64,000 bases of DNA from Sabellastarte sp. h YS-2021. Its lineage: Eukaryota; Annelida; Polychaeta; Sabellida; Sabellidae. The stretch's first letter is position 1. Every line of letters starts with the position of its first letter. The stretch lies in the NCBI GenBank assembly GCA_964017235.1, contig OZ024936.1, forward strand, positions 9,462,496 through 9,526,495, in the 5' to 3' direction. Below, piece by piece: positions 1 to 60,850 of this stretch. The translations under genes were made by a program, and so were the position numbers. Below the pieces are notes generated by a model. That model was not told the origin of the DNA and did not search any database. It was given only the letters and a program-made list of their open reading frames with translations.

Positions 1-3000
1 TATTTCCCATTGACTTTAGTTTGGGAATTTCCAGATGAATGTATAGCTACCTGATGTCACTGACCAAGTCATCTGGCCATTGTGGTGGACACAGACTTTT
101 TGGCACAGGTGGGGAGGTGGTGACCCCACGATCTTATACAATACAACAGGGTATGGGTTAAGTGGTTTATTTTTTGAGATACAGACATAAGCAACATTCC
201 CCATTAATATTAGTTGGGAGATTTCTGTAGCATGGGTACGTACCTTACACGAGCCAAACTTTGGTCCGGCAAAAAGGTCTGGATTTTTCTCCAGAAATAG
301 CAAGGTCAGGCCGCCACAAACTGATGCAATATAACAGGGTTGGGTGTTTGGGGCTTGCTTACAGAGAATCGGCCAAACAGAATATTTCCCATTGACTTTA
401 GTTGGGGGATTTCTGATGTCACTGACCACGTCATCTAGACATTGTGGTGGACACAGATTTTTTTGCACAGGTGGGGAGGGGGTGGCCCCACGATCTTATA
501 CAATACAACAGGGTATGGGTTAAGTGGTTTATTTTTTGAGATACAGACATAAGCAACATTCCCCATTAATTTTAGTTGGGAGATTTCTGTAGCATGGGTA
601 CGTACCTTACACGAACAAAATTTTGGTCGAGGGAAAAGGTCTGGATTTTTCTCCAGAAATAGCAAGGTCAGGCCGCCACAAACTGATGCAATATAACAGG
701 GTTGGGTGTTTGGCGCTGGGTTACAGAGAATGGGCCAAAAGGAATATTTCCCATTGACTTTAGTCGGGGGATTTCCTGATGCATGTATAGCTACCTGCTG
801 TCACCGACGAGCAAGCCGGCCGAAATGGCGGACACAGATTTTTTTGCACAGGTGGGGAGGGGGTGACCCCACGATCTTATACAATACAACAGAGTATGGG
901 TTAAGTGGTTTATTTTTTGAGATACAGACATAAGCAACATTCCCCATTAATTTTAGTTGGGAGATTTCTGTAGCATGGGTACGTACCTTACACGAGCCAA
1001 ACTTTGGTCGGGGAAAAAGGTCCGGATTTTTCTCCAGAAATAGCAAGGTCAGGCCGCCACAAACTGATGCAATATAACAGGGTTGGGTGTTTGGGGCTTG
1101 CTTACAGAGAATCGGCCAAACGGAATATTTCCCATTCACTTTAGTTGGGGGATTTCCAGATGCATGTATAGCTACCTGTTGTCACCGACGACCAAGCCGG
1201 CCGAAGCGGAGGACACAGATTTTTTTGCACAGGTGGGGAGGGGGTGACCCCACGATCTTATACAATACAACAGAGTATGGGTTAAGTGGTTTATTTTTTG
1301 AGATACAGACATAAGCAACATTCCCCATTAATTTTAGATGGGAGATTTCTGTAGCATGGGTACGTACCTTACACGAGCCAAACTTTGGTCGGGGAAAAAG
1401 GTCTGGATTTTTCTCCAGAAATAGCAAGGTCAGGCCGCCACAAACTGATGCAATATAACAGGGTTGGGTGTTTAGCGCTGGGTTACAGAGAATCGGCCAA
1501 AAGGAATATTTCCCATTGACTTTAGTTGGGGGATTTCCAGATGCATGTATAGCTACCTGTTGTCACCGACGACCAAGCCAGCCGAAGCGGAGAACACAGA
1601 TTTTTTTGCACAGGTGGGGATGGGGTGGCCCCACGATCTTATACAATACAACAGGGTATGGGTTAAGTGTTGTTTTTTTTGAGATACAGACATAAGCAAC
1701 ATTCCCCATTAATTTTAGTTGGGAGATTTCTGTAGCATGGGTACGTACCTTACACGAACAAAATTTTGGTCGGGGTAAAAGGTCTGGATTTTTCTCCAGA
1801 AATAGCAAGGTCAGGCCGCCACAAACTGATGCAATATAACAGGGTTGGGTGTTTGGTGCTGGGTTACAGAGAATCGGCCAAAAGGAATATTTCCCATTGA
1901 CTTTAGTTGGGGGATTTCCTGATGCATGTATAGCTACCTGTTGTCACCGACGACCAAGCCGGCCGAAATGGCGGACACAGATTTTTTTGCACAGGTGGGG
2001 AGGGGGTGACCCCACGATCTTATACAATACAACAGGGTATGGGTTAAGTGGTTTATTTTTTGAGATACAGACATAAGCAACATTCCCCATTAATTTTAGT
2101 TGGGAGATTTCTGTAGCATGGGCTTACACGAGCCAAATTTTGGTTGGGGAAAAAGGTCTGGATTTTTCTCCAGAAATAGCAAGGTCAGGCCGCCACAAAC
2201 TGATGCAATATAACAGGGTTGGGTGTTTGGGGCTTGCTTACAGAGAATCGGCCAAACAGAATATTTCCCATTGACTTTAGTTGGGGGATTTCTGATGTCA
2301 CTGACCACGTCATCTAGACATTGTGGTGGACACAGATTTTTTTGCACAGGTGGGGAGGGGGTGACCCCACGATCTTATACAATACAACAGGGTATGGGTT
2401 AAGTGGTTTAATTTTTGAGATACAGACATAAGCAACATTCCCCATTAATTTTAGTTGGGAGATTTCTGTAGCATGGGTACGTACCTTGCACGAGCCAAAT
2501 TTTGGTCGGGGAAAAAGGTCTGGATTTTTCTCCAGAAATAGCAAGGTCAGGCCGCCAAAAACTGATGCAATATAACAGGGTTGGGTGTTTGGGGCTTTCT
2601 TACAAAGAATCGGCCAAACGGAATATTTCCCATTGACTTTAGTTTGGGAATTTCCAGATGAATGTATAGCTACCTGATGTCACTGACCAAGTCATCTGGC
2701 CATTGTGGTGGACACAGACTTTTTGGCACAGGTGGGGAGGTGGTGACCCCACGATCTTATACAATACAACAGGGTATGGGTTAAGTGGTTTATTTTTTGA
2801 GATACAGACATAAGCAACATTCCCCATTAATATTAGTTGGGAGATTTCTGTAGCATGGGTACGTACCTTACACGAGCCAAACTTTGGTCCGGCAAAAAGG
2901 TCTGGATTTTTCTCCAGAAATAGCAAGGTCAGGCCGCCACAAACTGATGCAATATAACAGGGTTGGGTGTTTGGGGCTTGCTTACAGAGAATCGGCCAAA

Positions 3001-3607
3001 CGGAATATTTCCCATTGACTTTAGTTGGGGGATTTCCAGATGCATGTATAGCTACCTGTTGTCACCGACGACCAAGCCGGCCGAAGCGGAGGACACAGAT
3101 TTTTTTGCACAGGTGGGGAGGGGGTGGCCCCACGATCTTATACAATACAACAGGGTATGGGTTAAGTGGTTTATTTTTTGAGATACAGACATAAGCAACA
3201 TTCCCCATTAATTTTAGTTGGGAGATTTCTGTAGCATGGGTATGTACCTTACACGAACAAAATTTTGGTCGGGGAAAAAGGTCTGGATTTTTCTCCAGAA
3301 ATAGCAAGGTCAGGCCGCCACAAACTGATGCAATATAACAGGGTTGGGTGTTTGGCGCTGGGTTACAGAGAATCGGCCAAAAGGAATATTTCCCATTGAC
3401 TTTAGTTGGGAAATTTCCTGATGCATTTATAGCTACCTGTTGTCACCGACGACCAAGCCGGCCGAAACGGCGGACACAGATTTTTTTGCACAGGTGGGGA
3501 GGGGGTGACCCCACGATCTTATACAATACAACAGGGTATGGGTTAAGTGGTTTATTTTTTGAGATACAGACATAAGCAACATTCCCCATTAATTTTAGTT
3601 GGGAGAT
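1..3607. repeat. Tandem satellite array, 381-bp unit, about 9.5 copies
   Basis: Landmarks recur at exactly 381-bp steps (for example 706, 1087, 1468, 1849 and 2967, 3348). Two units (near 385 and 2264) share a deletion just after the 'ttgggggattt' motif, and the unit ending near 2130 lacks a few bases at 'gcatgggtacgtac'. The array enters the window already in progress, so its left edge is unseen. Each unit contains two related halves of about 188 and 193 bp, both starting near a 'caatayaacaggg' motif. Units carry chance open frames on both strands (75 aa plus, about 81 aa minus). These repeat with the unit and look like no protein I know, so I do not call them genes. The last unit breaks off at about 3607 in 'gttgggagat'. 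Confidence 0.95.
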
Positions 3608-7450: not shown

Positions 7451-7966
7451 ATCTGTAAATCTAGGCCCTACAGTCAGTCCTTGAGAAATAAAACATGAGA
7501 TTTTGATTACTCACCAATGCAAGGGTGCCGTAGGGTTACCTACATAACAATCAATCATTAATGAACAGATGAATCAAAATGACAACTGATTACAAAAATT
7601 TTGCAATAGTTAAAAAGATTGTCACACTATAAAAACAGGCAGTTGACAATGGGGGTGAAAGTAAGATTTCTTAAGACATTATATGAACATTATATGGTAC
7701 GAGTGGATAGGACCTCAAAGTGACCGTTTTCACAAAAGGGATCAAAATCAGATTGAGCCAAAACTTAGCTCAAGTTTAGTATAAACAGCTGTAAACTTGA
7801 GCTGATTTTCGTTTCAACTTGAGCTTGATATTTTTGCGAAAAATACTAGTCTTACCCATCAAACACTGTAATTGCACTGTAATCGAACTGGACGTAAAAC
7901 TTTGACCTTGTATGCTTAACCATGAGATTATGTATAGGATATAGATTTTACTTATCTTATGTATTA
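7450..7966. other. Unassigned AT-rich spacer
   Basis: No open frame with recognisable content, no clear tandem structure and no TE terminus could be identified in this stretch. Confidence 0.5.
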
Positions 7967-7977
7967 TTCATTCAAAT

Positions 7978-8113
7978 GGGGGCCACAATGACAGAGCGGT
8001 AAGACTCTCGCCTACTACCTCTGAGGCCGGGGTTCGGTTCCTGGCCCGACCTCAAGTGGGAAAGCTGGTAGTTGCTTGCTGTTGGTCGGCACTTTACAGT
8101 ACAGAACCTTGAC
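7978..8113 (+). repeat. SINE family 1, 5' part, split by the Ngaro-like element
   Basis: The tRNA-like head 'gacagagcggtaagactctc' and a B-box-like 'ggttcggttcc' are followed by the family body as far as 'cagtacagaaccttgac'. The SINE resumes at 13795 with 'aaactgtatgtactggtttc'. Joining the two parts gives a normal member of the family, so the retrotransposon inserted into this SINE. A weak match between 'ttcattcaaat' before the head and 'ttcatcaaaaat' after the tail may be the SINE's own target duplication. Confidence 0.85.
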
Positions 8114-8114
8114 C

Positions 8115-8410
8115 CAGTCTCTGTCGTATCTTGGTTGTTTACTACAGTTGAGATAAACACGAATGCACGTTTGGAGATTTATTATTTACATATCACATCT
8201 ATTGTTAGTAGCACACTTTAAGTTAACCCTAACTTAAGTTTAACTTTTCTTATTTCTGGTTAAGGTCACCTCAAATTGTACTGGCTATGTTATTCTACGT
8301 TTTACACAAATTAAGGTTAGTTTCTAGCTATGTTAGTTTACACTCTACACTCTATGTATATACACGATCCGTCTGTACATGTTTAAGTATGATAGTCTGT
8401 AAACCACTAA
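8115..8410 (-). repeat. B2 terminal split direct repeat
   Basis: This 296-bp segment, starting 'cagtctctgtcgtatcttgg' on the plus strand, matches 8716-9009 at a constant offset of 601 with no difference seen until the 'aaaccacyaa' edge. Read in element orientation it is the 3' terminus. It holds an AATAAA on the minus strand (8178-8183) that could serve in polyadenylation. Confidence 0.9.
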
Positions 8411-8531
8411 AAGAACGCTTGAATTGTGTGCTACAAATGTACATCACACTTGGTGTTGCAACACCGATTAAAAAATAAAAAGCCTCGTTAAGGCTGTTAC
8501 ATCAAGAGACCCGCTGTGGGGTGGGTGGAGG
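8411..8531 (-). other. Unique segment between the A2 and B2 repeats
   Basis: This 121-bp stretch occurs once in the element. It contains a perfect 14-bp palindrome, GGTGTTGCAACACC (8452-8465). It also has a small stem with arms AGCCT/AGGCT near 8481-8495 that, on the minus strand, runs into a T-rich stretch. Its role is unknown. The palindrome could be a recombinase or replication signal, but nothing in the sequence proves that. Confidence 0.6.
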
Positions 8532-8714
8532 CAACAAACTCCTGGTTAAAAACACTGTTTTCCCTTTGACTTAAAATTTAAAACTGAGGTGTGGTTCTAA
8601 TTGGCCGACCTCAGAATGAGGCCCCTAGTGGATTGTACTAGAACTATTTTTAAGGTATCTTACAACAAATGCGCATAGACTGAGGGGTGGTGCTAGTAAC
8701 CTTCTCACCATGAC
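8532..8714 (-). repeat. A2 internal split direct repeat
   Basis: This 183-bp segment, beginning 'caacaaactcctggttaaa' and ending 'ctcaccatgac', reappears at 13612-13794 with a constant offset of 5080 and no visible mismatch. It lies against B1 with one base between them, forming the internal B1-A2 junction typical of the split-repeat layout. Confidence 0.9.
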
Positions 8715-8715
8715 A

Positions 8716-9009
8716 CAGTCTCTGTCGTATCTTGGTTGTTTACTACAGTTGAGATAAACACGAATGCACGTTTGGAGATTTATTATTTACATATCACATC
8801 TATTGTTAGTAGCACACTTTAAGTTAACCCTAACTTAAGTTTAACTTTTCTTATTTCTGGTTAAGGTCACCTCAAATTGTACTGGCTATGTTATTCTACG
8901 TTTTACACAAATTAAGGTTAGTTTCTAGCTATGTTAGTTTACACTCTACACTCTATGTATATACACGATCCGTCTGTACATGTTTAAGTATGATAGTCTG
9001 TAAACCACC
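8716..9009 (-). repeat. B1 internal split direct repeat
   Basis: Second copy of the B repeat, directly downstream of the recombinase frame in element orientation. It carries the same minus-strand AATAAA (8779-8784) as B2, so transcripts could end here or in B2. Confidence 0.9.
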
Positions 9010-9035
9010 AAACGTACACAGTAGGGGTAGGAAGT

Positions 9036-10037
9036 TTATTTAACAGCTGCCTGGAAGCATCTGGCCACTGTTCCTGCTGCTGATGGCGTTCTTTGCAAAT
9101 AAGCCCACACAGCATCTGATTTCCATCCCCCATGGGTTTTTATGTGCTGCAGACTTATGTTATTCTCATAAGCCCAGGACGCCCCCGACCTGCGGAAAGC
9201 GTGGAAACCGTATTCGTTGGCAGGAAGCCCCAGCTTCTGTACGACCTGTCTCAAGATCGTTCTTACTCTGTGAGCTGTGAGAATGGTGGTCGTACCCGCT
9301 TCTGATATGGTAAATACTGGAAGGTCTTTGTGCTCAGGGTTGCTTGAAACTATGCGTCGCAGAGCCGTGACGGGGCATATTTCTTTGTCTGGGAGCAGAG
9401 GGAGCTGAACCACCCGAACTTGCCCAGACACTTGCATATTCTTTGCACTCTTCGTGATGACATGAACCCCAGGCGGACCCCATATAATGTCTCCGTGGGT
9501 AGTATACCTAGCAGGTGAGAATGAAGCCTTATTATGAGGCACCAAGGTAGCTAGTCGGTAGAAACCGAAGAACCCCATAAGGCAGATAGCCGTGATTTCT
9601 TTACTGTGGGGATACTCTTTGAGGGCTCTTGTTAGCAACTTCAGCTGTGCAATCGACCAAACGCCTTTGATTTTAAAAGACAGGGGGGCGTTGTAAGCTA
9701 CGGCCCGAATGGCTAATTTAATGAGCTTGTTATCCAGGACTGCTGTGTTCATGTTGTAAAGCACGAAGAAGTGACCTAGGACCGTCATATAATTGGCTAT
9801 AGTCTGTGCGCGCAGATTTTGTTGAGCCAAGTATTCAACAAAGGTGGACACGGCTTGGAACGAGTCGGGGGGCTGAATGTCAGCCACCACCAGGAAGGCT
9901 ATGTACGACCTGAATTTGCTCTTGTACGCTGCCAACGTCCTAGGTCTGAAGCCTCTGTCTGCCCTGGCTTTGAAGTCTGCTGATAACTTGGTTGCGAGCT
10001 GAGTACCTACAATTACACAGAGAAATCCGGCTGAAAG
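9036..10037 (-). CDS. Tyrosine recombinase (integrase) of the Ngaro-like element
   Basis: This is the enzyme expected to insert the circular cDNA by strand exchange through a covalent 3'-phosphotyrosine. The frame is open for 333 codons. The N-terminal half fits a SAM-like core-binding domain ('FRSYIAFLVV'). The catalytic half shows Arg161 in 'FFGFYRLATL', the His279-x-x-Arg282 pair in 'GFHAFRRSG', His302 in 'KTHGGW' and the nucleophile candidate Tyr313 in 'VWAYLQ', so the R-H-R-H-Y set is complete. There is no in-frame ATG before about 9788, inside the domain. The frame overlaps the end of RT/RNase H by 22 nt in the -1 frame. The upstream part (RPRT motif) is conserved in the decayed copy at 52.3 kb, so coding does begin before the TTG at 9935. 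Frameshifting, reinitiation or splicing must supply the start; I cannot tell which. Confidence 0.92.
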   Translation of the reverse strand, partial: LSAGFLCVIVGTQLATKLSADFKARADRGFRPRTLAAYKSKFRSYIAFLVVADIQPPDSFQAVSTFVEYLAQQNLRAQTIANYMTVLGHFFVLYNMNTAVLDNKLIKLAIRAVAYNAPLSFKIKGVWSIAQLKLLTRALKEYPHSKEITAICLMGFFGFYRLATLVPHNKASFSPARYTTHGDIIWGPPGVHVITKSAKNMQVSGQVRVVQLPLLPDKEICPVTALRRIVSSNPEHKDLPVFTISEAGTTTILTAHRVRTILRQVVQKLGLPANEYGFHAFRRSGASWAYENNISLQHIKTHGGWKSDAVWAYLQRTPSAAGTVARCFQAAVK

Positions 10038-12394
10038 TCATGTGAATTAACCTCGAACCACTGGCACCCTTTAAGGTATTTTACAATATGATTATTAATG
10101 TTTTGGAAGTGCTGCCACCTTGAAAGTATATCTGCGTACTTATTGTCTGTGCCTGCAATGAATCTGACTGTAACCTTAATGTTATATTTAGCTTTAAGCA
10201 GCCACAACGTCCTTGCACAAGCTGCCAGGAAAACGTCCCTACTGGCTCCTGTGTTGAGGATATGTACGACAGCACTGTTGTCGCAAAACACTTGTACCCA
10301 TTTATCCTTCCATAAATGCCCCCAAGTTCTGAATGCAATAATAACGTTCACCATTTCATAGTGAACTATGGATAATACACTTTTGTAACAGATAGGAATA
10401 TTCTTGTTGTACACTTTGCCGTGACTATAAGCCCCCACAGCCAGCAGACATGCGTCGACGTACAAGTCGATATCAGGCTCCCGTTGTGTATGTATCTTGG
10501 AAACCCCATTGTAACTCTCCATGAATTTACAGAACCAGGTTATATCCCTGTAGAATGCCTCATCCAGGTTTATTCTTCCCGACGTGGGCGCGTTCCTAAG
10601 GGTCGTTAGTACCCTGTTTACGAACAGACGCGCAGGCGTTATGCATTTATGTAAGTAGATTAGATGACCTACCAAGCTCTGCAACTGTTTCTTGCTGGCT
10701 GAATTTTTTGTCATCCAGTGTTCACAAGTACTCTTAATTTGCGATAACTTCTGTGTAGGGATGTGTAGCATACCTGTCTCCACGTCGATTTCAATACCTA
10801 AGCATGTTAGGCGGGTGACAGGGGCAGAAACTTTATCCAGATTTATAGGGAGGCCTAGAGATGTGATTAAGTTCGTGAGTGCCAAGAACGCGTTGTTAGC
10901 AGACTTAGCTGGAGCTACCCCAATTACGTCGTCCAGGTACGAACACGTCCAGTGACCTGCGGTTGCCAGAAGATGTGTGACGCAATCGGTCACGGATTGA
11001 CACGCGGAAGCACCCGATTTCAGGCCGAAAGGCACGCTTACGTCAACGTACTTGTATTTGCCCCACTGTAGTCCCAACACTGAAAGATCCCGGGGGTCTG
11101 TCCTTAAATTTCTATAGGCTCTTTGAAGATCTACCTTGAAAAGGCGAGCGTCCTTGCCTGTGTCCACAATTGCCTGTATTATATTGTCTATTGTTGGGTA
11201 TTTCAGAGTACAGGGGTGTGAGTCGAGTTCGTTATCTGCTATCCTGCTGTTAACCCCCTCACCTTTGGGCCACGACAAGTCTACGATTATGCGACGATTG
11301 CCATCTGGTTTGGGTCTTGTCATCATTGGTGACACGTGCAAGTGTTCGAAGGGAGCGGATTCGAACGGGCCTACTATTGCCCTATGGCTAATCTCCGTCT
11401 CTAGATAGCTAGTAACAGCTTTAGGATATTGTATAGCCGACTTGTGATTTGCTGTATCTTCTATGTAAGTGAAGTTCGTGTAGTCAAGAGCGAGGGGGAA
11501 CCCGAACTCCACGTAGTCAATGACTCGACTGAAGTTGTAGTTTTGAAGAAGATGCCTAAATTGTTTAACATTAAGGCCTGATCTTACTTTAATTCTTGCT
11601 CCTCTGTAATTTGGAACGGTATGTTTATTTGCCTCCCTGTGTGCTAATTGAACCCACAATGCCATGTCGGGCTGGTCAATTGTTTTACAATGGACTTCAC
11701 TTACTGCCAATAACTTCTCATTGAATATAAGCCCCCATTGGTGATGTAAGGCATTGTTATTGTTGATATTGGCGTTTTCGCCCCCTTCCTTCAAAAGCCT
11801 ATTGTTTTTGGATGCCCCCTTATTAGAACAATGGCTATAATTGCTTGTGATTTGACACTTCTTGAGCAAACTGCCACAATGCATCTCACTTAAATTAGAT
11901 TGTCCATGATAATGGTTAGCCACCTTTTGTGTCTCTGGCTGGCTGTCGGGGGCTGGGATGCTATTATCGAGTTGGCTTGTCGATTCATTAACACTATTGT
12001 TCCCGTTTGCTGCCTCATCATTGTTAGGCGCGTTTGTTTTGTTAGACGTGTTGACCTCCCCTTCCAGGCCAACGTATTCATCTGCCAGGTCAAACTCATT
12101 GTGTAACCCATAAACGCTTTCATACACATTGGTTTGTAAACTAAAACTGTCTATAATGCTCTTGTTTTTAAAATTGTCACCATTTGATAACTTATGCACA
12201 TTATATAACTGAGTAATGTAACCAGTTTGTTTCCTGTTAATTTCTGCCCCACTAAAACCTATGTCCAACTTACACCATTGGCACGAACAATATAATACAT
12301 GTGTACTATTATAAAACACACTGTCTTTAATACACCATTTGCAGAGGCAATTGCTTAGGTGTTTACTATAATATGCACTATTTGCAAAATGCAT
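10013..12394 (-). CDS. Reverse transcriptase / RNase H of the Ngaro-like element
   Basis: A 793-aa polyprotein that would copy the element RNA into DNA. Residues 1-250 are poorly recognisable, with paired cysteines near the start (16, 18, 21 and 36, 38, 41). The RT domain spans about 340-560, with 'DGNRRIIVDLSWPKG' (364-378), first catalytic Asp422 in 'LFKVDLQRAYR', 'VPFGLKSGA' (454-462) and the YLDD box (486-489). The RNase H domain spans about 640-760, with Asp647, Glu680, Asp705 and Asp755 ('YADILSRW') as the likely D-E-D-D set. There are no internal stops. An ATG lies at 12394-12392, 25 nt after the gag stop. The frame is open upstream through that stop to 12436, so a gag-RT frameshift fusion is also possible. 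Type: DIRS/Ngaro RT, not LTR/Gypsy, judged from its neighbouring YR and RNase H style. Confidence 0.95.
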   Translation of the reverse strand: MHFANSAYYSKHLSNCLCKWCIKDSVFYNSTHVLYCSCQWCKLDIGFSGAEINRKQTGYITQLYNVHKLSNGDNFKNKSIIDSFSLQTNVYESVYGLHNEFDLADEYVGLEGEVNTSNKTNAPNNDEAANGNNSVNESTSQLDNSIPAPDSQPETQKVANHYHGQSNLSEMHCGSLLKKCQITSNYSHCSNKGASKNNRLLKEGGENANINNNNALHHQWGLIFNEKLLAVSEVHCKTIDQPDMALWVQLAHREANKHTVPNYRGARIKVRSGLNVKQFRHLLQNYNFSRVIDYVEFGFPLALDYTNFTYIEDTANHKSAIQYPKAVTSYLETEISHRAIVGPFESAPFEHLHVSPMMTRPKPDGNRRIIVDLSWPKGEGVNSRIADNELDSHPCTLKYPTIDNIIQAIVDTGKDARLFKVDLQRAYRNLRTDPRDLSVLGLQWGKYKYVDVSVPFGLKSGASACQSVTDCVTHLLATAGHWTCSYLDDVIGVAPAKSANNAFLALTNLITSLGLPINLDKVSAPVTRLTCLGIEIDVETGMLHIPTQKLSQIKSTCEHWMTKNSASKKQLQSLVGHLIYLHKCITPARLFVNRVLTTLRNAPTSGRINLDEAFYRDITWFCKFMESYNGVSKIHTQREPDIDLYVDACLLAVGAYSHGKVYNKNIPICYKSVLSIVHYEMVNVIIAFRTWGHLWKDKWVQVFCDNSAVVHILNTGASRDVFLAACARTLWLLKAKYNIKVTVRFIAGTDNKYADILSRWQHFQNINNHIVKYLKGCQWFEVNSHDFQPDFSV

Positions 12395-12419
12395 AAATGT
12401 GGGACAGAAAGGTTCGTAG

Positions 12420-13568
12420 CTAAACCCTTGCCTTGTCTACTGATTGACTGTTATGGCGCTTGGCCCTGTTGCACTTGGTTTCCGGATGAGGGTAGTGGCG
12501 TTTAACTGCCTTGAAGCAGGTATAGCAAGAGTGCTTGTAGAGGGTTTTCCCGTCTGTGTGATCTTTTGCCTGTGTGCACACGTCTTCATTGTAGCGTTTG
12601 CATACTCGGGTTTGCTCCTCGACAGCACTAGGCCCCTCCGCTTTAAGAACCCTTTGGGTGAATCGTTGTCGGATCCGGTCTATGCCTATCTGATCCTTCC
12701 AGGTGACTTGCCCTCTCTCTACCTCAGTTAGTACAGCTGCGTGTGCGCGTTTAGCAGTTGGCCAGCTTAATTCTAGGGCGTCCTGCATTAAGTTGCTCTG
12801 GTATTGCAACATGAAAGTACGAATGTTGGGATCTTTTTCTTCTAGAACGCACCTACTAAACCCTTGCACCCATTGGAAAATATTGATGTCCTCGTACGTA
12901 GGCATTTTCAAGTTTTCCCCCACTGAGCAGAACTCGTGTGGCCAGTTAACGTGATGTTTTACAGCCTGATCGCCTAGTCGATATCTCCCGGATTTGACTT
13001 TGCGCAACGTACCTTTGCTGTCTTCTCTGTCCAGGTTCTCGTACTGACGCATTCTTCTGTCTACTCTTGCTTGCACCTCGCTGTCTTGGCGCAGTGAATC
13101 CATGGAGGGCAGGTGGACTGACGAGTCGTGTGCTGCTGAATGCGAACGCTGCTTTACTGAACTTTTGGGGGAGCTATGTGCGGATGGCTGTGAGAGGAGT
13201 GATAATCTGCTTTGCTGTTCCTGTAAATCAAGGCGTTTCTCTATATCCGCAAACTTGTCCATGAACTGTGTCAGCTTACTCATGACCTCTGATGTTGAAG
13301 GTTGTTTTCGCTTGTTCTGGCCTTTCTTCTGTGGAGCATTCGTTTCCGATTCCTGTGTTATTTGAGGTTGTTGAGATGTACCCGCCGAACTCGTCCCTGC
13401 CACCACAGGTTCTGTGTTAGTCACGTTCGTCCTTGCTGCCTTAGCCTTTGTCCTGCCTTTGGAAGCTGTTATCCTAGAACACGAAACTCCGACCGGTGGT
13501 TTGTGTCTTTGTTTACACTTGTAGCAAGCTACCCTATTCCTGGTATTATAACCTCCACTTGTGGACAT
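12420..13568 (-). CDS. Gag-like protein of the Ngaro-like element
   Basis: A 382-aa frame directly downstream of repeat A1, presumed to package element RNA. Near the N terminus is a Cys cluster (Cys15, Cys18, Cys30; 'RVACYKCKQRHK'). Residues 35-150 are polar and low-complexity, rich in Ser, Gln and Lys, with a short coiled-coil-like stretch near 95-125. The conserved middle (about 205-305) includes 'ALELSWPTAKRAH'. The C terminus has a second Cys/His cluster: Cys323, Cys331, His337, His346, Cys348, Cys351 and Cys366, consistent with CCCH-type zinc binding. The same C-terminal region is recognisable in the decayed copy at 17956-18440. The ATG at 13568 is the first in frame after A1. Its assignment as gag is by position and Cys/His pattern. 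Confidence 0.88.
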   Translation of the reverse strand: MSTSGGYNTRNRVACYKCKQRHKPPVGVSCSRITASKGRTKAKAARTNVTNTEPVVAGTSSAGTSQQPQITQESETNAPQKKGQNKRKQPSTSEVMSKLTQFMDKFADIEKRLDLQEQQSRLSLLSQPSAHSSPKSSVKQRSHSAAHDSSVHLPSMDSLRQDSEVQARVDRRMRQYENLDREDSKGTLRKVKSGRYRLGDQAVKHHVNWPHEFCSVGENLKMPTYEDINIFQWVQGFSRCVLEEKDPNIRTFMLQYQSNLMQDALELSWPTAKRAHAAVLTEVERGQVTWKDQIGIDRIRQRFTQRVLKAEGPSAVEEQTRVCKRYNEDVCTQAKDHTDGKTLYKHSCYTCFKAVKRHYPHPETKCNRAKRHNSQSVDKARV

Positions 13569-13611
13569 GATGATATCCCACGGAACTTAAATAAACGAGC
13601 TTAATTTCAAA

Positions 13612-13794
13612 CAACAAACTCCTGGTTAAAAACACTGTTTTCCCTTTGACTTAAAATTTAAAACTGAGGTGTGGTTCTAATTGGCCGACCTCAGAATGAG
13701 GCCCCTAGTGGATTGTACTAGAACTATTTTTAAGGTATCTTACAACAAATGCGCATAGACTGAGGGGTGGTGCTAGTAACCTTCTCACCATGAC
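13612..13794 (-). repeat. A1 terminal split direct repeat
   Basis: The 5' terminal repeat of the element, identical by eye to A2 (8532-8714). Transcription of the element is expected to start in or near it, but no TATA-like signal could be assigned with confidence. It abuts the SINE remainder at 13795. Confidence 0.9.
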
Positions 13795-13893
13795 AAACTG
13801 TATGTACTGGTTTCCTCTGCCCTTGCAACTACCCGTCGTGATATGACCTGTACAGTGTTGAAAGCGATGTAAAACCCAAATAAATAAATAAAT
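13795..13893 (+). repeat. SINE family 1, 3' part (other half of 7978-8113)
   Basis: The SINE body resumes at 'aaactgtatgtactggtttc', runs through 'gtcgtgatatgacctgtac' and ends in a TAAA repeat. Together with 7978-8113 it makes one SINE. Confidence 0.85.
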
Positions 13894-14149
13894 CTTCATC
13901 AAAAATTGTGCATAATAAAATTAAAACATCTGTTATTAGACTTGAATGAGAAAAATGACTTGTAGTTTTATTGGCAGAGGAAACCAGTACATGTCACTCA
14001 TCACACATAAAGACGATATTGGGATGGCGACTATATATCTCTTTGCAGGTTATAAACTTATTACAATACCTGGAAAATTGGATTTTTTTTTAAAAAAAAC
14101 ATTGTTCATTTTTCAATCAACTAATGCAATTGCATATAAATAATTTGAT

Positions 14150-14920
14150 TTGAAACTTGAGATTTCTCAGTCATTTTAAGAAATGAATTTAAACGTATCA
14201 AAACAACGAGAAATGGCTCTGTACCTTTGTAACAATGTAGACAGCAGAATTATAGGTTATACAATCAACAAAATATTACTGAAAACCCAACCATTAATTA
14301 CGCATTTGTGATGTTAATTATACTTAGTAAAAATATTTGACATTTTTCCGCCATTTCTCTAGGAATTTTCATGCACCAAAAGGAGCACCATCAGTATTTT
14401 TAATCACACATGTTTTTAAAAATTATTTACAGAAACTAAGTTTTGTTTACACAGTTGTAACACTTAATTATCAATGGCACGTGAAGTTAGTATAAATGCA
14501 AACTTCAGTTATTAACTTAAGATTTCAGGTGCTATTTCTACATGGATGTTAACGCAACAAAAGCAACAAGAAACTCCTTAAAAGTACTTTTCCAATTGCT
14601 TATTTGGAAAATATGTAGGTAAAATAGTTATATAAATATTTGGTAAATCTCAGCGAGGATTTAGGCCTTTATAATTCCACGTTGATAGTAATTACTGGTA
14701 GTTTATATTTAAATTTAAATTTTTAACTCAAATATTATTAGACTATTTGTAAAAAAACAACTCAGCACCTATTTACCTATTCATAGCAAGAGCTATACAC
14801 AGCACCAATAAATATAAAAGGTTAGTTTTTAACTCAAGATTCTTCCACTACCTTTGCATGGATCTTAATGCACCAGATCTAGCAGAAACACCTATGACTG
14901 AACCTTTCCGGTAGTTTGCA
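14150..14920. repeat. Diverged tandem repeats with an 'ATGGATTTTAATGCA-CAAAA' landmark
   Basis: Related segments occur near 14163, 14340, 14517 and 14828 (steps of about 177, 177 and 311 bp). Each has a 'aactyaagattt' start, then 'tctacatggat-ttaatgca' and 'caaaa-gagca'. The same landmark is dispersed at 23745-23830, 57172-57245, 58580-58825 and 59405-59470. The family is unknown to me and no coding potential is visible. Confidence 0.55.
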
Positions 14921-20704: not shown

Positions 20705-21425
20705 TTGAAACTGATGTTGAACTGTCCACCAGTTATTTTGTTTGATTGAAATAACTTCATGGGCATGTCATTCCAGCTGGCCAGGTTATTTTGACTGGAA
20801 AAAATTGTCACATCTTGTCCGTCTTCTGAGATAGCTGTGGAATTTGGCAATTTCACACTTTTGCCAAAGTCATGAAGAATGGCAGACATATCTCGTCTTG
20901 TTGTGGATGCTGGTGCTTGTCACATAGGGAAGAAGGCTTTTAGGGTCCTTGTGGCCATTGACGGCAATTATATCATTGTCCCCAATATCTGCATGTACAA
21001 GAACTGTCGTTGTTGTAGCTCTTATACAATGGTTAGTGAAAATTTGGGAGAGATTAGCCCTTACTGAAATATTTCTCATCATGTTATCTATGCTGTGCAC
21101 TCCCAATTTTCCAAAAGCACAACTTTCATTTGCAGATAAATTTTCTTTTGTCCTTGGATTTTGGAGAAATTGTTCTTCTGTATCACTTACTTTTTGTGAA
21201 TATAATCTCAAGGATTTAACTGGACACAGCTCATCATTTGGAACACTATACATACGCTGGTCTTTCTTCAAATTAAGTTGTATTCCATGATTTTTCTTGA
21301 TAGCCTCGTTATAGTTCAGGCTTACATACTCAGCCGGGCTATTTTGGTCATCCTGTTGGAATACAAAGGAGGACTTTTTAATATTCTTCCATCCTTCTCT
21401 CTCTCTTCGGCCAAAATGTGAGGCT
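20705..21425 (-). pseudogene. Crypton-type tyrosine recombinase domain, frameshifted
   Basis: The minus-strand frame runs 'SHFGRREREGWKNI' (candidate first catalytic Arg), 'CPVKSLRLYSQKV', 'FTNHCIRATTTTVL' (His-x-x-Arg), 'VNGHKDPKSLLPYV' (third-box His and a Tyr candidate). After a frame change near 20905-20920 it continues 'MSAILHDFGKSVKLPNS'. This set of blocks fits the Crypton-derived recombinase domain (DUF3504-like) found as transposons and as domesticated exons in animals. The open stretch has no ATG at its start. It begins just after a possible 3' splice site ('ttaattag' near 21425), so it could be an exon. The frameshift argues for a pseudogene. Confidence 0.7.
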
Positions 21426-21683
21426 AATTAAAAAATCTTATCAATAGCCATGTACATGTATAAAATCTACCACATGATAGAGTCAAACAGAAAATATAGA
21501 TCTCATAGAAGTATTTCATCTATTTTTTCGTTAGTCGAATACGCCAATTGTAATATTCCGAGTTACTGCGCATGTGGGCAAAGCTTATTTTACTTCCCGC
21601 GAATGACATTACTGATACAGTGTTCATAATTTGAATGGTATGCTATACCGTATTATCTGTAGGCCAATAAGAGTAATGATAAT
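21426..21683. other. Unassigned AT-rich spacer
   Basis: Nothing recognised, apart from the possible splice acceptor at the Crypton domain's edge. Confidence 0.4.
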
Positions 21684-27834: not shown

Positions 27835-29700
27835 GGTTTTTTTATAATTTTTAATCAAACAGTTTTACAAAATGTTTCCAGTCTTCATTAAACACATCTT
27901 CTTTAAAATTATATACAGCAACTAACTTATGTTCTACGTATACATTTTTAACATCCTCCTGTAAGTTTTTGAATATATGTGGAATACCTTTTCTAGAATT
28001 TTTAAATAGAAATTTCTTTGTAACCATAATAATTGTGTGGATTGGAAGGAAATACTGGTCCTTATTAAAATATCCTAACATTATATCTCTTGGTTGTATA
28101 TTCATAGTAAAATTAATCTCATTTTGAATCCATGATTTAAGTTCATTCCAAATTATTTGAGATTTATTGCAGTGGTAAAATAAATGTAGGAGAGTTTCAG
28201 GAGAGATATTGCATTGCAGACACAAAGAGGATTTAGCGTTGCCTATTGTTTGAAGTATGTATTGCGTACCCAGTATTCTATGTAAAACCCTGTATTGGAG
28301 CCATATTATATCATTATCTTGAACAGTTTTAAAACATATCTGGAATCTAAGTTCCCAATTATTTTCCTGTATATTTATTCTTCATTCCATCTATATTTAA
28401 CCTTAGCATCAATGGTTGTGTCGTATAAAATACTATAATTTTGAGTGGATTATTATTGAAATATGATGAGGGATACTAGGCCGCTCAAATTTTACAGCTG
28501 TGATTTTCAGTTTGTTCAAAAACCTAGTCAGCAAAATGTTTAGTCTGTGGTACTCGAGGAAATTTGTAATTTTAAATCCATACAGATTCTCAATTTCAGC
28601 TTTACTCATTATTTGACCTTTGTTACTTCAAATGTCTCTGACAAAGGTTATACCATTTCTGAACCATGTTGGATAGAATAGGGGTGTATCAGATATATCC
28701 GGGTTGTACCACAGAACACTGGATATAAAATCAATATTACTTTTAACGTGTCTGGATATTTTGATCCATGCTAAAAACACATCTTTCCAGAATTGATTTT
28801 GTGATTTACTGACTAGGTGGTTAAACCACTGAATCCCAAAGCATGATATTTTTTTCACACAAGAAACTGTTTCTTCAAAAAGAACACCCCATGGTGATGT
28901 TCCACATTTCAAGAGTCTATTAATCCAAGTTAATTTGAGGGATTGAATGAAACATTCTCAATTAGTCATTTTGAGGCCTCCTATTTTGTAGTCCTGACAC
29001 AGAAGTACTCTTTTTATTTTGTCTGGTTTATTATCCCAAATAAAATTGCATAATAGAGTATTTAATTTTGACAAAAAAATCTTTTGTAGAGGATGGGATG
29101 GAACCAAAAAGATGGTTAAACCTGGACAAGATAAAGGTTTTAAGTATTGTTATCTTTTCAAATGGTGTCAGATTCCTCTTTTTCCAATTTAAAATCAGCT
29201 TTTTAGCATCATCCCGTGTCAAACTGTAATTTATGCTTGGGATTTTCATTAAATCTACTGAAAACCATATTCCAAGTAATTTAAATTCTGAAACACCCCA
29301 CTCGAAATTTGAATTTATGTTTAATTTCCACTTGGAATGTTTTTTCCTTCCAATCCTCACAAGTTTGGTTTTACTTTTGTTTTTCTGTAATCCTAAGTAA
29401 CTACCAAAAACTTCAATTGTGTTAAGTGCTGCTTGAAGAGAGCTCGGTGAACCGTCTAAAATCAATGTAGTGTCATCAGCAAATTGTGTAAGGCGAAATT
29501 CTTTATTTCCAATATTTATGCCTTTTATATCTGGATTTTTTTTAATAAGGTAATATAAGATTTGAGCACAAATTATAAATATTTATGGTGCAATTGGGTC
29601 CCCTTGTTTACAACCTCGTTCAATTTTGAAAAAATCTGATTTCACTGAATTAGAATTATTTGGAGAAAATTTTGACCCACTAGGGCTCTGCCAAGTCTGC
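27835..29700 (-). pseudogene. L1/Tx1-like LINE, 5'-truncated, with stops
   Basis: Minus-strand reading from about 29700 gives the RT blocks 'ERGCKQGDPIAP', 'RLTQFADDTTLILDG' (catalytic Asp pair intact), 'FKLLGIWFSVDL' and 'LTPFEKITILKTFILSRFN'. After broken frames it ends with a Cys/His zinc-binding tail, 'CLQCNISPETLLHLFYHC' (28225-28170), and a stop at 27851. Endonuclease and RT fingers are absent, so it is truncated at the 5' side as retroposed LINEs usually are. Several stops and frame changes make it inactive. Two further relatives are at 55195-56695 and 61740-62870. Confidence 0.78.
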
Positions 29701-30234: not shown

Positions 30235-33115
30235 GTCAAATAGTCGAGCAGATGGAACTCGATAGCTTTGAACGGCCACTCATCTAGGAGAGGATTCAAT
30301 CCGATATAAAAGTCTGGGTAGATTCGATCCGTCAGCTGTGGATCAGCAACCAATCTAGAGGAAGAAGACCTCGACTACAAACTCCCTGGCTCTCCAGGTT
30401 GGGGATTTAGCACAGAGCCAACAACCCTGTCTTGTAAAACAAATTATGTTACGGAAACAGCAACAAAGGATTTAACTACATTTTTACTGACAGTATGACT
30501 GTTGGTAGTCAAAGCCGAAAGGAAGCTAGCAGCATGAATAAAGTCCTCAGTGCCAAATGTAAAACCAGATTAGAATTCTGGAATGTTCGTACTATGTATG
30601 AAATAGGCAAATTAGCACAGGTAACATCAGAAATGGAAAGATACAATCTACACATACTTGGAATAAGTGAAAGCAGATGGACTGGATCTGGCCAAATAAC
30701 AACAGATGATAAAGAAACAGTATTGTACTCTGGTTGTGAAGATAATCACCACTCAGAAGGAGTTGCTCTAATTCTAAAAAAGGAATGGAAAATAAACTAC
30801 TGGAATGGAAACCAGTTTAACAGCAGGCTATTAACAGCAAGATTTAAAGGTCGTCACAACAGCATGACTATCATACAGTGTTATGCACCAACAAATGACA
30901 GTGATGAAAATAGCAAGGAAACCTTCTATGAACAACTGCAATCAGAAATCATCTCTACTCATGGTCATGATATACTAATTGTCATGGGAGACAATAGTTG
31001 CAATAGTTGGCAATGAAAACATCTGCATGGAACGGATAATGGGGAAGCATGGTTGTGGAAGTTTAAACAACAATGGAGAAAGACTAGTCGACATAAGTGC
31101 ATTAAATAACCTTGTAATAGGAGGCACATTGTTCCCACATCCGTTGATACACAAACTAACTTGGAACTCCCCAAATGGGAGAGACAGAAACCAAATCGAT
31201 TACATCCTACTTAACGGGAAATGGAGAAGATCACTGATAGATGTTAAAGTGCATAGAGGTGCAGATGTGGGCAGTGATCACCATCTTGTTATCGACCAGT
31301 TGAAGGTGAAGTTGAGGAGCACACGCAAACATGTAACATCAAACAAGAATTTTGACACAGACAAATTGAAAGATCAGAAAGTCAAAAACACTTTTGTTAT
31401 CCAACTGATGAATAGATTTGAAGCCCTAGCAGCAGAGCCTCCAGAAGCAATGGAGAATACAGAAGTCAACAAGCTATGGGAAATGTGAAAGAGGCATACT
31501 GTGATACCAGTAAGAACTGCCTGGGTTATAGAACCAACACAGCAAGAAAAAAAATGGCTAACACCTACCACATGGGAAGCTTTTGAAAACAGGCACAATA
31601 TCAAACTTACGGAACTAAACTCATATTCAGAAAGACTGAAGAATAAATACAAAGATCATTGCAAAACTGCTGACTAAGAAGTTAAGAAACTAGCAAAAAA
31701 AGATAAGAGAATATACATCAAAAGCATTACTAGACAGGCTGATGTTGCTGCATGGAAGAAAGATCAAGGGCAGCTCTATAAATTGACCAAACTGTGGCAA
31801 GTACAGGACCAACGTGAACATCCTAATTAAGGACAAAGATGGAAAACTTTTAGCAACAGTCAGTGAGCAGGATACAAGATGGGTAGAACACTTCAAAGGG
31901 GTTTTAAATAGGCCACCACCTGACCACCACCAGGAAAGGTAGAGGCTACATTGAGCAAATTTTTGCACTTCGTAACATCATAGAACAATGCACAGAATGG
32001 CAAAGACAGTTGTACATAAACTTTGTTGATTTTCAGGAGGCCTTTGATAACATCCACAGAGAAAGCCTTTGGAAAATATTAAGAGCATATGGAATACCAC
32101 TCAAAATAGTTAACATCATAAAAAGCTTTCACAACAACTTTGCATGCAGTGTAAAAAACAGTAACATCATGTTCCAAATGAAAACGGATGTCAGACAGGG
32201 TTGCGTTATGTCAGCTATCCTTTTTAATATGGTCATAGATTGGGTGATGAGAAGAACAACCAAAGATAACAAGAGGGGAATACGATGGAACATAGACACT
32301 GTCCTGGAAGACCTTGACTTTGCTGATGACATTGCTCTATTATCACATACACCTGAACATATGCAGGTAAAGACCAAACGCCTCTCTGAAATTGCCAAAA
32401 CCATCAGCCTAAACATTAGTGAAACAAAAACTGAGGTTATGATCTTAAACATTACAAACAACACACCAATAAAAGTCTACAATAAGGATCTACCAACAGT
32501 AGACAGATTTACTTACCTTGGAAGCATAGTAAGAAGTGATGGAGGAGCATGTGACGATATCAAAAACAGGATTGCCAAAGCAAGAAATGCCTTCATATCA
32601 CTGAATAATGTCTGGAAGTCCAGCCAGTATAACAAGGGCACAAAACTCAAATTATACCAGAGTTGTGTACTATCAACACTTTTGTACCGCTCCGAGTGCT
32701 GGAGAACGACAGAAGTAGACCTTGAAAAACTGTCAACTTTTCATACAAAGTGTCTAAGGCGAATAACAAGTATCTTCTGGCCTAGAACTAAAAGCAAACA
32801 AAGACCTACTGGCTGATTGTAACCAACAAGATATGGCCACAATACTTATGAAAAGAAGATGGAAATGGATACACCATGTCATCAGAAAAGACAATGCTTC
32901 ACACACCAAAACAGCACTCCACTGGACACCTGAGGGTAAAAGAAAACGTGGAAGACCCAAGATAACATGGCGGAGAACAGTCGAAGGGGAGTTAAAAAGC
33001 CTGGGCCACACATGGAGAACAGTGGAAAGGATGGTAAGAGACCTCCACCAGTGGAGAACCTTTGTTGCTGCCCTACATGACACTAGTCATAACGGGCAGT
33101 AAATAAGTAAGCAAA
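30235..33115 (+). pseudogene. RTE-type (BovB-like) LINE, damaged
   Basis: The leader (30235-30494) contains 'agccaacaaccctgtcttgt'. The endonuclease begins at 30495: 'KTRLEFWNVRTMYE', 'GISESRWTGSG', 'QCYAPTND'. A frame change near 31000, beside a short duplication, leads to 'NQIDYILLNGKWR' and 'GSDHHLVID' (endonuclease end). The frame then stops at 31488 and further stops follow. RT resumes after an internal deletion near 31935 that removes the fingers. It shows 'YINFVDFQEAFDNIHRESL', 'DVRQGCVMSAILFNMVIDW', 'DLDFADDIALLSH' (catalytic Asp pair) and 'FTYLGSIVRSDGG', up to 32816. The C terminus (32833-33102) carries 'GKRKRGRPKITWRRTVEGEL'. The element is nearly full length at both ends but clearly inactive. 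Confidence 0.88.
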
Positions 33116-41383: not shown

Positions 41384-41597
41384 TAGTGGTAACACTCTCG
41401 CCTCCCACCTCTCGGGTTCGGTTCCCGGCATGGCCTCAAGTGGAAAAGCTTGTAGTTGCTTGCCGTTGCTTGGCAGTTTACAGTACAGAACCTTGACCAA
41501 CTGTATGTACTGGTTTCCTCTGCCCTTCCAACTACCCATCGTGATATGACCTGTACAGTGTTACAAGCGATGTAAACCCCAAATAAATAAATAAATT
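41384..41597 (+). repeat. SINE family 1, 5'-truncated, with target duplication
   Basis: It begins within the head ('gtggtaacactctcgcctcc'), has a B-box-like 'ggttcggttcc', and ends in a TAAA repeat. Flanks ttcattgataaact and ttcaatgacaaact differ at two positions and are the likely target duplication. Confidence 0.88.
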
Positions 41598-59659: not shown

Positions 59660-60850
59660 TCAAAATTTAATTTGAAAAATACTATAAATTTAATTGGGTC
59701 AATTTTATCTGATGCCAAAAAGTTATTGTATGGTGTGCCTCAAGGCTCTGTCCTGGGGCCAATCCATTTTTCACTCTATACTACTCCACTGAGTAAAGTC
59801 ATACAGAATCATCCTGGTATTAGTTTCCAGTTCTACGCTGATGACACACAATTGTATGTACACCTCACACATAAAAATGTTGCCTCGGCCCTTGATAACC
59901 TGTCACACTGCCTTGAAGACGTAAAGAGATGGCTCTCTACAAATAAGCTCAAGCTAAATTCAGATAAGACCGAATTCATTGTGTTTCGCTCAAAGTCTCA
60001 GCGCGAAAAAGTCCTTCCCGGTCAACATACTTGGTAATCTCATATCACCAACAGATGCAGTTAGGAACCTTGGTGTCTGGTTTGATTCAGATTTCTCATT
60101 CTCTTGCCATGTTAGGAAGGTCTGCAAGGCTTGTTTTGCTCATGTCCGGGATCTTAAGCGACTCCGAGGACATCTGACACATGAAGCTACTCTTATGGCT
60201 GCCAATGCTCTGGTCGGAAGTCGACTAGATTACTGTAACTCTCTGTTCAGAGGTCTCTCAGCTCTAGATCTGCGCAAACTTCAATGTGTTCAGAATAGCC
60301 TTGCCAGAATTGTTGCCAACACCACCAAGTACTCACACATCACTCCAGTTAGAAAAGCACTACATTGGTTGCCAATTAAGTACCGTTCTATCTTTAAGAC
60401 TGCCATGCTGGTATATAAGTTCCTACACAGTGGTAACCCCAAATACTTTGAACCCTTCCTCATTCCCAGACATAGTGCATATAACACACGTCGAAGTCAA
60501 TCTGATGGCATATTTCTTGAGGTTCCCCACTTTGGTTCAATTTTCAAGTCTCGAAAACATTTTGGACTCAGTTTTGCGTATGACGCACCTATGATTTGGA
60601 ATGACCTTCTTGATGAGGTCCGCTCTGCAAACTCACTTGCCTGTTTCAGGTCAAAGTTGAAGTCATACCTCTTTGGAAAAGCATACCCACCCTAAATTTC
60701 CAATCTCCTTTCTGCTTTCTCCGCGGTGCTGACCCCTGCAATGTCTCTGGTTTTTGAATATTGAACAATGTTTTTGTGTGATACGCCTTAGAGTCTGTCT
60801 TTTGACGGAGATTAAGCGCTATAAAAGTGCTATTAGAATTAAAATTAATT
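59660..60850 (+). pseudogene. L2-like LINE, 5'-truncated, one frameshift
   Basis: The first frame (to 60037) has RT blocks 'YGVPQGSVLGPIHFSLY' and 'FQFYADDTQLYVHLTH' (catalytic Asp pair intact), then 'WLSTNKLKLNSDKTEFIVF'. A frame change near 59995 moves coding to 59979-60695: 'AVRNLGVWFDSDFSFSCHV', 'VGSRLDYCNSLFRGLSALD', 'ALHWLPIKYRSIFKTAML' and the C-terminal 'FRSKLKSYLFGKAYPP'. The short 3' UTR contains 'gccttagagtctgtctt' and 'gcgctataaaagtgctatta'. Only the frameshift and 5' truncation disable it, so it is fairly young. L2/CR1-like clade within the Jockey group is my reading. Confidence 0.88.

Follow-up and report, generated by a model that had tools for sequence, protein, structure and literature searches.

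A recently inserted, probably still competent Ngaro-type tyrosine-recombinase retrotransposon in a sabellid annelid genome

The window, that is, the whole stretch of DNA that we analysed, covers 64,000 nucleotides of the genome of Sabellastarte sp. h YS-2021 (contig OZ024936.1, positions 9,462,496 to 9,526,495). On its minus strand lies a retrotransposon of 5,681 bp (8115-13795), delimited by ends that are constant among sibling copies with differing flanks, and by an empty site in a SINE. A preliminary description of this DNA had placed the limits at 8115 and 13794; the left end stands, and the true right end is one base further. The element reads A1-ORF1-RT/RH-YR-B1-A2-spacer-B2, with split direct repeats. 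Repeat A1, the 5' end (13612-13795), is identical to A2 (8532-8715) at 184 of 184 positions, and B1 (8716-9008) is identical to B2, the 3' end (8115-8407), at 293 of 293, in keeping with what had earlier been judged by eye. Compared over 296 bp (from 8115 and 8716), the B repeats show a single mismatch at the inner edge, where 8408 is T and 9009 is C. The B1/A2 joint reads GACTG, then TGTCATGG, and a unique spacer, present as a single copy within the window, separates A2 from B2 (8408-8531). A1 contains TCAGTC (13758-13763), which we take to follow the initiator consensus and which may mark the transcription start. A possible poly(A) signal, AATAAA, occurs in B2 (8178-8183) and again in B1 (8779-8784), and was present in B of the six loci inspected. 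No tRNA was found in the window.

As first reported, three frames are open; all lie on the minus strand. ORF1 (12420-13568) is gag-like by its position and by Cys/His clusters recognized by eye; it had no Pfam match and only one chance match in NCBIfam. ORF2 (10013-12436) is open from stop to stop and combines reverse transcriptase (RT) and RNase H in one frame. Its ATG at 12394 is not conserved in siblings, and the first methionine is residue 184 in six of the 11 full-length copies with ORF2 open, and likewise in the incomplete copy L014. The reverse transcriptase domain (10787-11314) matched Pfam RVT_1 above the cut-off (E 1.9e-8; 34.7 versus 29.6 bits), and the RNase H-like domain (10244-10474) matched RT_RNaseH below it (E 0.0024; 18.4 versus 24.8 bits). 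ORF3 (9036-10037), the tyrosine recombinase (YR), is also open from stop to stop, lacks an early ATG, and matched Phage_integrase below the cut-off (E 4e-5; 23.8 versus 27.1 bits). Across 18 aligned YRs, residues R161, H279, R282, and Y313, which we assume to be the catalytic residues of the recombinase, were invariant. Phage_integrase was matched at an E value of 0.01 or less by 15 of these sequences and Phage_int_SAM_1 by 16. Searches of NCBIfam with the YR yielded weak Xer-like matches only, far below cut-off, and searches of the PDB by sequence gave no match for the YR, the YR alignment, or ORF2.

Elsewhere in the window, a 185-aa stop-free stretch (20870-21427, minus strand) resembles a fragment of a tyrosine recombinase by eye, presumably of Crypton type. 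Short stretches without stops that resemble, by eye, remnants of LINE endonuclease or reverse transcriptase lie at 31908-32816, 30438-31016, and 59958-60695 on the plus strand and at 29031-29582 on the minus strand. At 444-3607, a 381-bp unit is repeated 8.4 times in tandem, with 93% matches. When frames of 180 aa or more were listed from stop to stop, none outside the element exceeded 302 aa, which fits the earlier remark that the other retroelements of the window are broken.

The element interrupts a SINE on the plus strand, whose left part lies at 7979-8114 and right part at 13796-13893 (outer limits approximate). An uninterrupted relative (41385-41596, plus strand) serves as a paralogous empty site. 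The joined flanks equal this relative from window position 41,483 at 32 of 32 bases, so the insertion duplicated or removed no base; what it added, read on the plus strand, is CAG...ACA. Nesting in a SINE and the lack of target duplication, both claimed at the outset, are upheld by this paralogous comparison. A second empty site is available for the sibling L009, which is inserted in a tandem repeat; adjacent units of that repeat cross the insertion point at 27-29 of 32 bases, so that insertion without target duplication is seen at two sites. Beside the element, an inverted pair (13802-13837 and 13957-13992, 83% over 36 nt) covers part of the 3' half of the SINE.

The host genome (1.786 Gb, 647 contigs) contains many relatives. 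A probe of 183 bp from repeat A gave 40 scored matches from 49 candidates, and a protein search with the YR gave at least 132 matches, at least 13 of them at 95% identity or more, the present copy included. Counted by hand, and with match totals being lower bounds, stops occurred in 22 of the 132 YR matches and were absent from 110. The related YR frames in this one genome form a large and diverse set, many of them stop-free. Among 20 retrieved loci, one of which is the present copy (L028), we identified 12 full-length family members (L009-L013, L015-L020, and L028). The 11 others differ from the present copy by 2, 11, 12, 16, 46, 56, 122, 123, 132, 135, and 282 substitutions. The closest sibling thus differs at two of 5,681 sites, and the four closest, with up to 16 substitutions over that length, lie at unrelated places. 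All 12 full-length copies and L014 share their outer ends but not their flanks; in the more distant L021 and L023, the A ends deviate slightly. L014 is missing A2-spacer-B2 and carries an ORF2 stop; L019 carries an extra A-spacer-B unit of 601 bp in tandem, with both B/A joints perfect; and L025 is a fragment. All three frames are open in 11 of the 12 full-length copies, the exception being L020, in which ORF1 and ORF2 are broken. Estimates of dN/dS (Nei-Gojobori) between the present copy and L013, L015, and L020 ranged from 0.00 to 0.15 for gag, RT, and YR in nine of nine comparisons; against L021 and L027, dS was saturated in five of six comparisons, and the sixth gave 0.05. Judged by these ratios, the open frames are under purifying selection.

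We regard the element as quite probably a recently inserted and still competent copy of a Ngaro-type tyrosine-recombinase retrotransposon, a reading built on comparison of sequences. Identical repeats and near-identical siblings at unrelated places agree with the initial view that the insertion is very recent, and the suggested search for near-identical genomic copies found them, the closest at two substitutions per 5,681 bp. The accompanying idea that an undamaged copy would be uncommon did not survive: 11 of the 12 full-length copies are intact, and 110 of the 132 listed YR matches are stop-free. It is a distinct, if lesser, possibility that the family was recently amplified, has since been silenced, and is intact in sequence but now immobile, given that intact frames are no proof of activity. 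Yet a sibling elsewhere with two differences in 5,681 positions, together with 11 of 12 copies undamaged, leaves little time since the last bursts.

The repeats appear to be rewritten as whole units. Members of the A pair are identical within 10 of the 12 copies and those of the B pair within nine. In the loci compared (eight for A, nine for B), copies differ from the present one at the same positions in both members, shared deletions included, and these paired differences are spread throughout A and B. On this evidence, homogenisation inside each copy extends through the whole of A and B, so copying only the outermost ends from B1-A2 would be insufficient by itself. Templating of the entire repeat, cDNA recombination, or gene conversion would account for the pattern.

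The spacer between A2 and B2 is the non-coding stretch that best matches L027, a relative with 62% YR identity (34 bp at 91%). Within it, we recognized a conserved, structured RNA motif of 71 nt (8435-8505, minus strand), consisting of an invariant hairpin, a U-run, and a covarying hairpin. The model of this motif, R1, was built from 13 sequences and scores 95.9 bits on the present copy, which belongs to the training set. A search of 40 of 56 sources with R1 returned 36 matches, 28 of them distinct. Hairpin 1 (8481-8495) has the form AGCCU-UWAYG-AGGCU, and its AGCCU/AGGCU stem is identical in 26 of 26 usable rows, for which reason it was rejected as a covarying helix; an apparent exchange in L055 proved on inspection to be an insertion splitting the motif. 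Because hairpin 1 never varies, covariation support for the fold comes from hairpin 2 only (8452-8465). Here, three of four pairs show two-sided changes, which occur in 24 cells; 99.2% of all cells pair, and three cells hold G-U pairs when read on the coding strand. In the model-fitted alignment, the cells paired, the two-sided cells, and the covariation score were higher than in all 500 shuffles, and the numbers of two-sided pairs (114/500 shuffles) and of further pair types (205/500) did not exceed the shuffles. A MAFFT alignment agreed, with 11 two-sided cells and a covariation score that no shuffle reached (0/500), and with 66/500 for two-sided pairs and 126/500 for further pair types.

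As the pattern AGCCTTWAYGAGGCTTTTT, the motif occurs 73 times in the host genome and not at all in a reversed control, and 44 of the 73 matches lie 483-1,309 nt downstream of a YR match on the same strand. Of the 132 YR matches, 90 entered this comparison, after 41 with identities near 40-44% and a single short fragment had been set aside; the exact pattern accompanied 43 of the 90 and was absent from 47. Sixteen of the 29 other motif matches were examined, in 14 loci, and inspection revealed B-type direct repeats, YR remnants, or A/B end motifs in 12 of these, L043 and L055 being less clear. In A2, upstream of the motif, 28 of the 31 distinct cases have TCAGTC and 27 have an AGCCTC-type box, with near-identical siblings counted. 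The AGCCTC box of A is by eye complementary to hairpin 1; pairing of the two was set aside. On inspection, L045, L048, and L052 seem to be solo A-spacer-B units, complete at the two outer ends and flanked by host DNA on each side. Such units would be analogous to solo LTRs or might be non-autonomous units.

Beyond these families, R1 run with filters off found nothing convincing in ten further sources (best E 0.77), among which were families whose YR identity is 41-44%, and L056, from a 44%-identity YR family, had neither the motif nor direct repeats of 40 bp or more. No relatives were found in viral contigs by pattern or by YR. In 257 Gb of prokaryote DNA, which serves as a control, the pattern gave 12 bacterial matches, close to the 7.5 that a hand calculation predicts by chance. 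Rfam returned no match in the window at the gathering score, and the spacer motif was on that basis rejected as a known RNA; one chance-level match fell over the spacer (E 1.8). The available portions of PMC9210276, PMC8547959, PMC4157794, PMC3266345, PMC6681497, and PMC3783388 make no mention of a spacer RNA motif, nor do the titles listed from a literature collection with few subscription reviews, and PMC6681497 and PMC3783388 contain no hairpin, stem-loop, or secondary-structure wording.

Since AATAAA is also present in B1, an RNA stopping there would lack the spacer, and on this ground we call the motif a putative genomic-RNA signal. We tentatively suggest, at somewhat less than even confidence, that the spacer is a dedicated, so far undescribed structured RNA that marks full-length genomic RNA for packaging or priming, apart from messages ending in B1. 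The motif might instead act as DNA, for example as a terminator, an accessory site for the recombinase, or part of a promoter. Hairpin 1 followed by the T-run is terminator-like by eye, and its invariant sequence is what one expects of a protein-binding site. However, the complementarity of hairpin 2 is kept through changes and includes G-U pairs on the coding strand, as for RNA, and in L037 the T-run is replaced with both hairpins kept. We consider a role as DNA somewhat unlikely.

How the recombinase is expressed can be addressed with the same copies. Eleven of the 12 full-length copies, the present one among them, have no ATG upstream of residue 83 in the YR frame, and in the twelfth, L020, none precedes residue 62; an early ATG is present in L021 and L026. 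An acceptor-like, pyrimidine-rich stretch (10007-10022, minus strand; 71% pyrimidine over 16 positions) ends in AG (10008-10007) right after the ORF2 stop (10015-10013), and the conserved part of the YR starts there. In all 17 distinct contexts that were placed, AG/G, with the cut between, keeps the same phase; the distant families L040 and L041 were left out, as was L025, a chance YR match that provides no anchor. The codon at this point specifies V, A, S, or T, so that its third base is free (fourfold-degenerate), and that base is nevertheless always A (17/17). An A fixed at a fourfold-degenerate position while the residue varies leads us to read the site as a 3' splice site, and the YR is probably made from a spliced message with its candidate acceptor at the ORF2 stop. 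No conserved splice donor was found in the 5' alignment. Programmed frameshifting or reinitiation where ORF2 and ORF3 overlap would be another route to the YR, and an unlikely one in our judgement. In the present copy, the two frames do have 22 nt in common, up to the stop, and overlapping or frameshifted YR frames are known in such elements, according to the portions available of PMC9210276 and PMC3783388. Nonetheless, the overlap contains by eye neither a slippery heptamer nor a restart ATG, the YR frame of L026 opens only 10 nt before the stop, and the A of AG/G stays constant beside a changing residue.

By structure, the element is of Ngaro type, which bears out its first designation as Ngaro-like: the direct repeats are split as A1 ... 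B1 A2 B2, with the internal repeats after the YR, and no methyltransferase match appeared in the three frames in Pfam at E values up to 1. The element has no inverted terminal repeats; the only inverted pair in 7800-14200 falls outside it. As far as the accessible text of PMC8547959, PMC9210276, and PMC4157794 describes them, Ngaro elements (A1-[ORFs]-B1A2B2) share the repeat order and the position of B1-A2 downstream of the YR, along with gag-like, RT-RH, and YR frames, the lack of a methyltransferase match, and the lack of target duplication seen at the present site; unlike them, our element has a unique A2-B2 spacer with a conserved RNA motif. It also lacks the SGNH hydrolase ORF reported for Xenopus Ngaro elements. 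DIRS1-like elements, in the part of PMC3266345 available, likewise combine RT with a tyrosine recombinase, have a circle in their replication model, and integrate without target duplication, but their terminal repeats are inverted, they contain internal complementary regions, and their 3-bp joint is the same as the target, whereas here the repeats are direct and the joint resemblance is loose. The kinetoplastid element VIPER, likened here by description only, has split direct repeats ordered A1, B1, A2, B2 (PMC6681497, in part). PAT elements share split direct repeats and gag, RT, and YR, but belong to the DIRS group, which is defined by a methyltransferase domain that was not matched here (PMC4157794 and PMC3266345, in part). 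That a PAT-type element of the DIRS group lost its methyltransferase and converged on the Ngaro structure is improbable in this case. Such convergence has been proposed for a Caenorhabditis briggsae lineage, and the structural features are considered homoplasious (PMC4157794, in part); however, no frame has a methyltransferase match, ORF2 extends only about 76 residues beyond the RNase H match, and many related families occur in the same genome. Ngaro elements are already widely known, and the present family adds another: from the passages available, 53 instances are recorded in the mollusc Lottia (PMC4157794), 1,741 and 1,801 copies in two hard clam assemblies (PMC8905726), and potentially active copies with 100% identical repeats in Xenopus (PMC9210276).

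Segmental or false assembly duplication is a highly improbable source of the near-identical copies: it fits one pair, in which L024 is a truncated duplicate of L009 adjoining it on one contig (1 mismatch in 5,472 bp), and is refuted for the remaining copies by their distinct, unrelated flanks. The duplicated L009/L024 segment holds the element together with its tandem-repeat flank, as in a local or assembly duplication.

Target sites were also compared. Over positions -4 to +5 of 15 insertion sites, the B1/A2 joint is matched 63 times out of 135, where other offsets in these flanks give an expectation of 34.8; such a value is reached in 0 of 20,000 permutations and in 1 of 20,000 when the SINE site is omitted. 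Column biases include A at -4 (13/15) and T at -2 (11/15). The core span was chosen after these biases had been seen, which makes the 15-site test partly post hoc, although the letters come from the element itself. Five sites of other families or solo units, which played no part in setting the span, gave 21 of 45 matches versus 11.3 expected (33 of 20,000 permutations), with 6, 2, 2, 6, and 5 of nine at the individual sites. Single sites of the first set match at 2 to 6 of nine, the SINE site being joint highest with L015 at 6. By these counts, the target sites loosely resemble the B1/A2 joint of the element. Judged by its sequence, the SINE seems a good target rather than a targeted family; targeting of SINEs as a rule was rejected, the other insertions being in unrelated DNA.

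These observations would fit the following course of replication. The RNA would start in A1 and end in B2. Reverse transcription, with B1-A2 supplying the missing ends, would then produce a circle with the joint GACTG plus TGTCATGG; the B1/A2 joint sequence is what the joined ends of such a circle would read. The recombinase, probably made from a spliced message with its acceptor at the ORF2 stop, would insert the circle through conservative exchange into sites that loosely resemble the joint; among these, the SINE is one of the better matches. The folded spacer motif, carried only on RNA that reads past the poly(A) signal of B1, would probably act as a cis signal, for instance in packaging or priming.

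For tyrosine-recombinase retrotransposons, the selection of genomic RNA, the rebuilding of ends, and the choice of target are mostly models. Many near-identical, undamaged copies in one genome make these three steps testable, and the family offers a target-site rule, a candidate recombinase splice site, full-length rewriting of repeats, and an RNA motif to probe. If the spacer does mark genomic RNA, that mark, combined with splicing of the recombinase message and a target choice by likeness to the joint, would provide a concrete replication scheme for tyrosine-recombinase retrotransposons.
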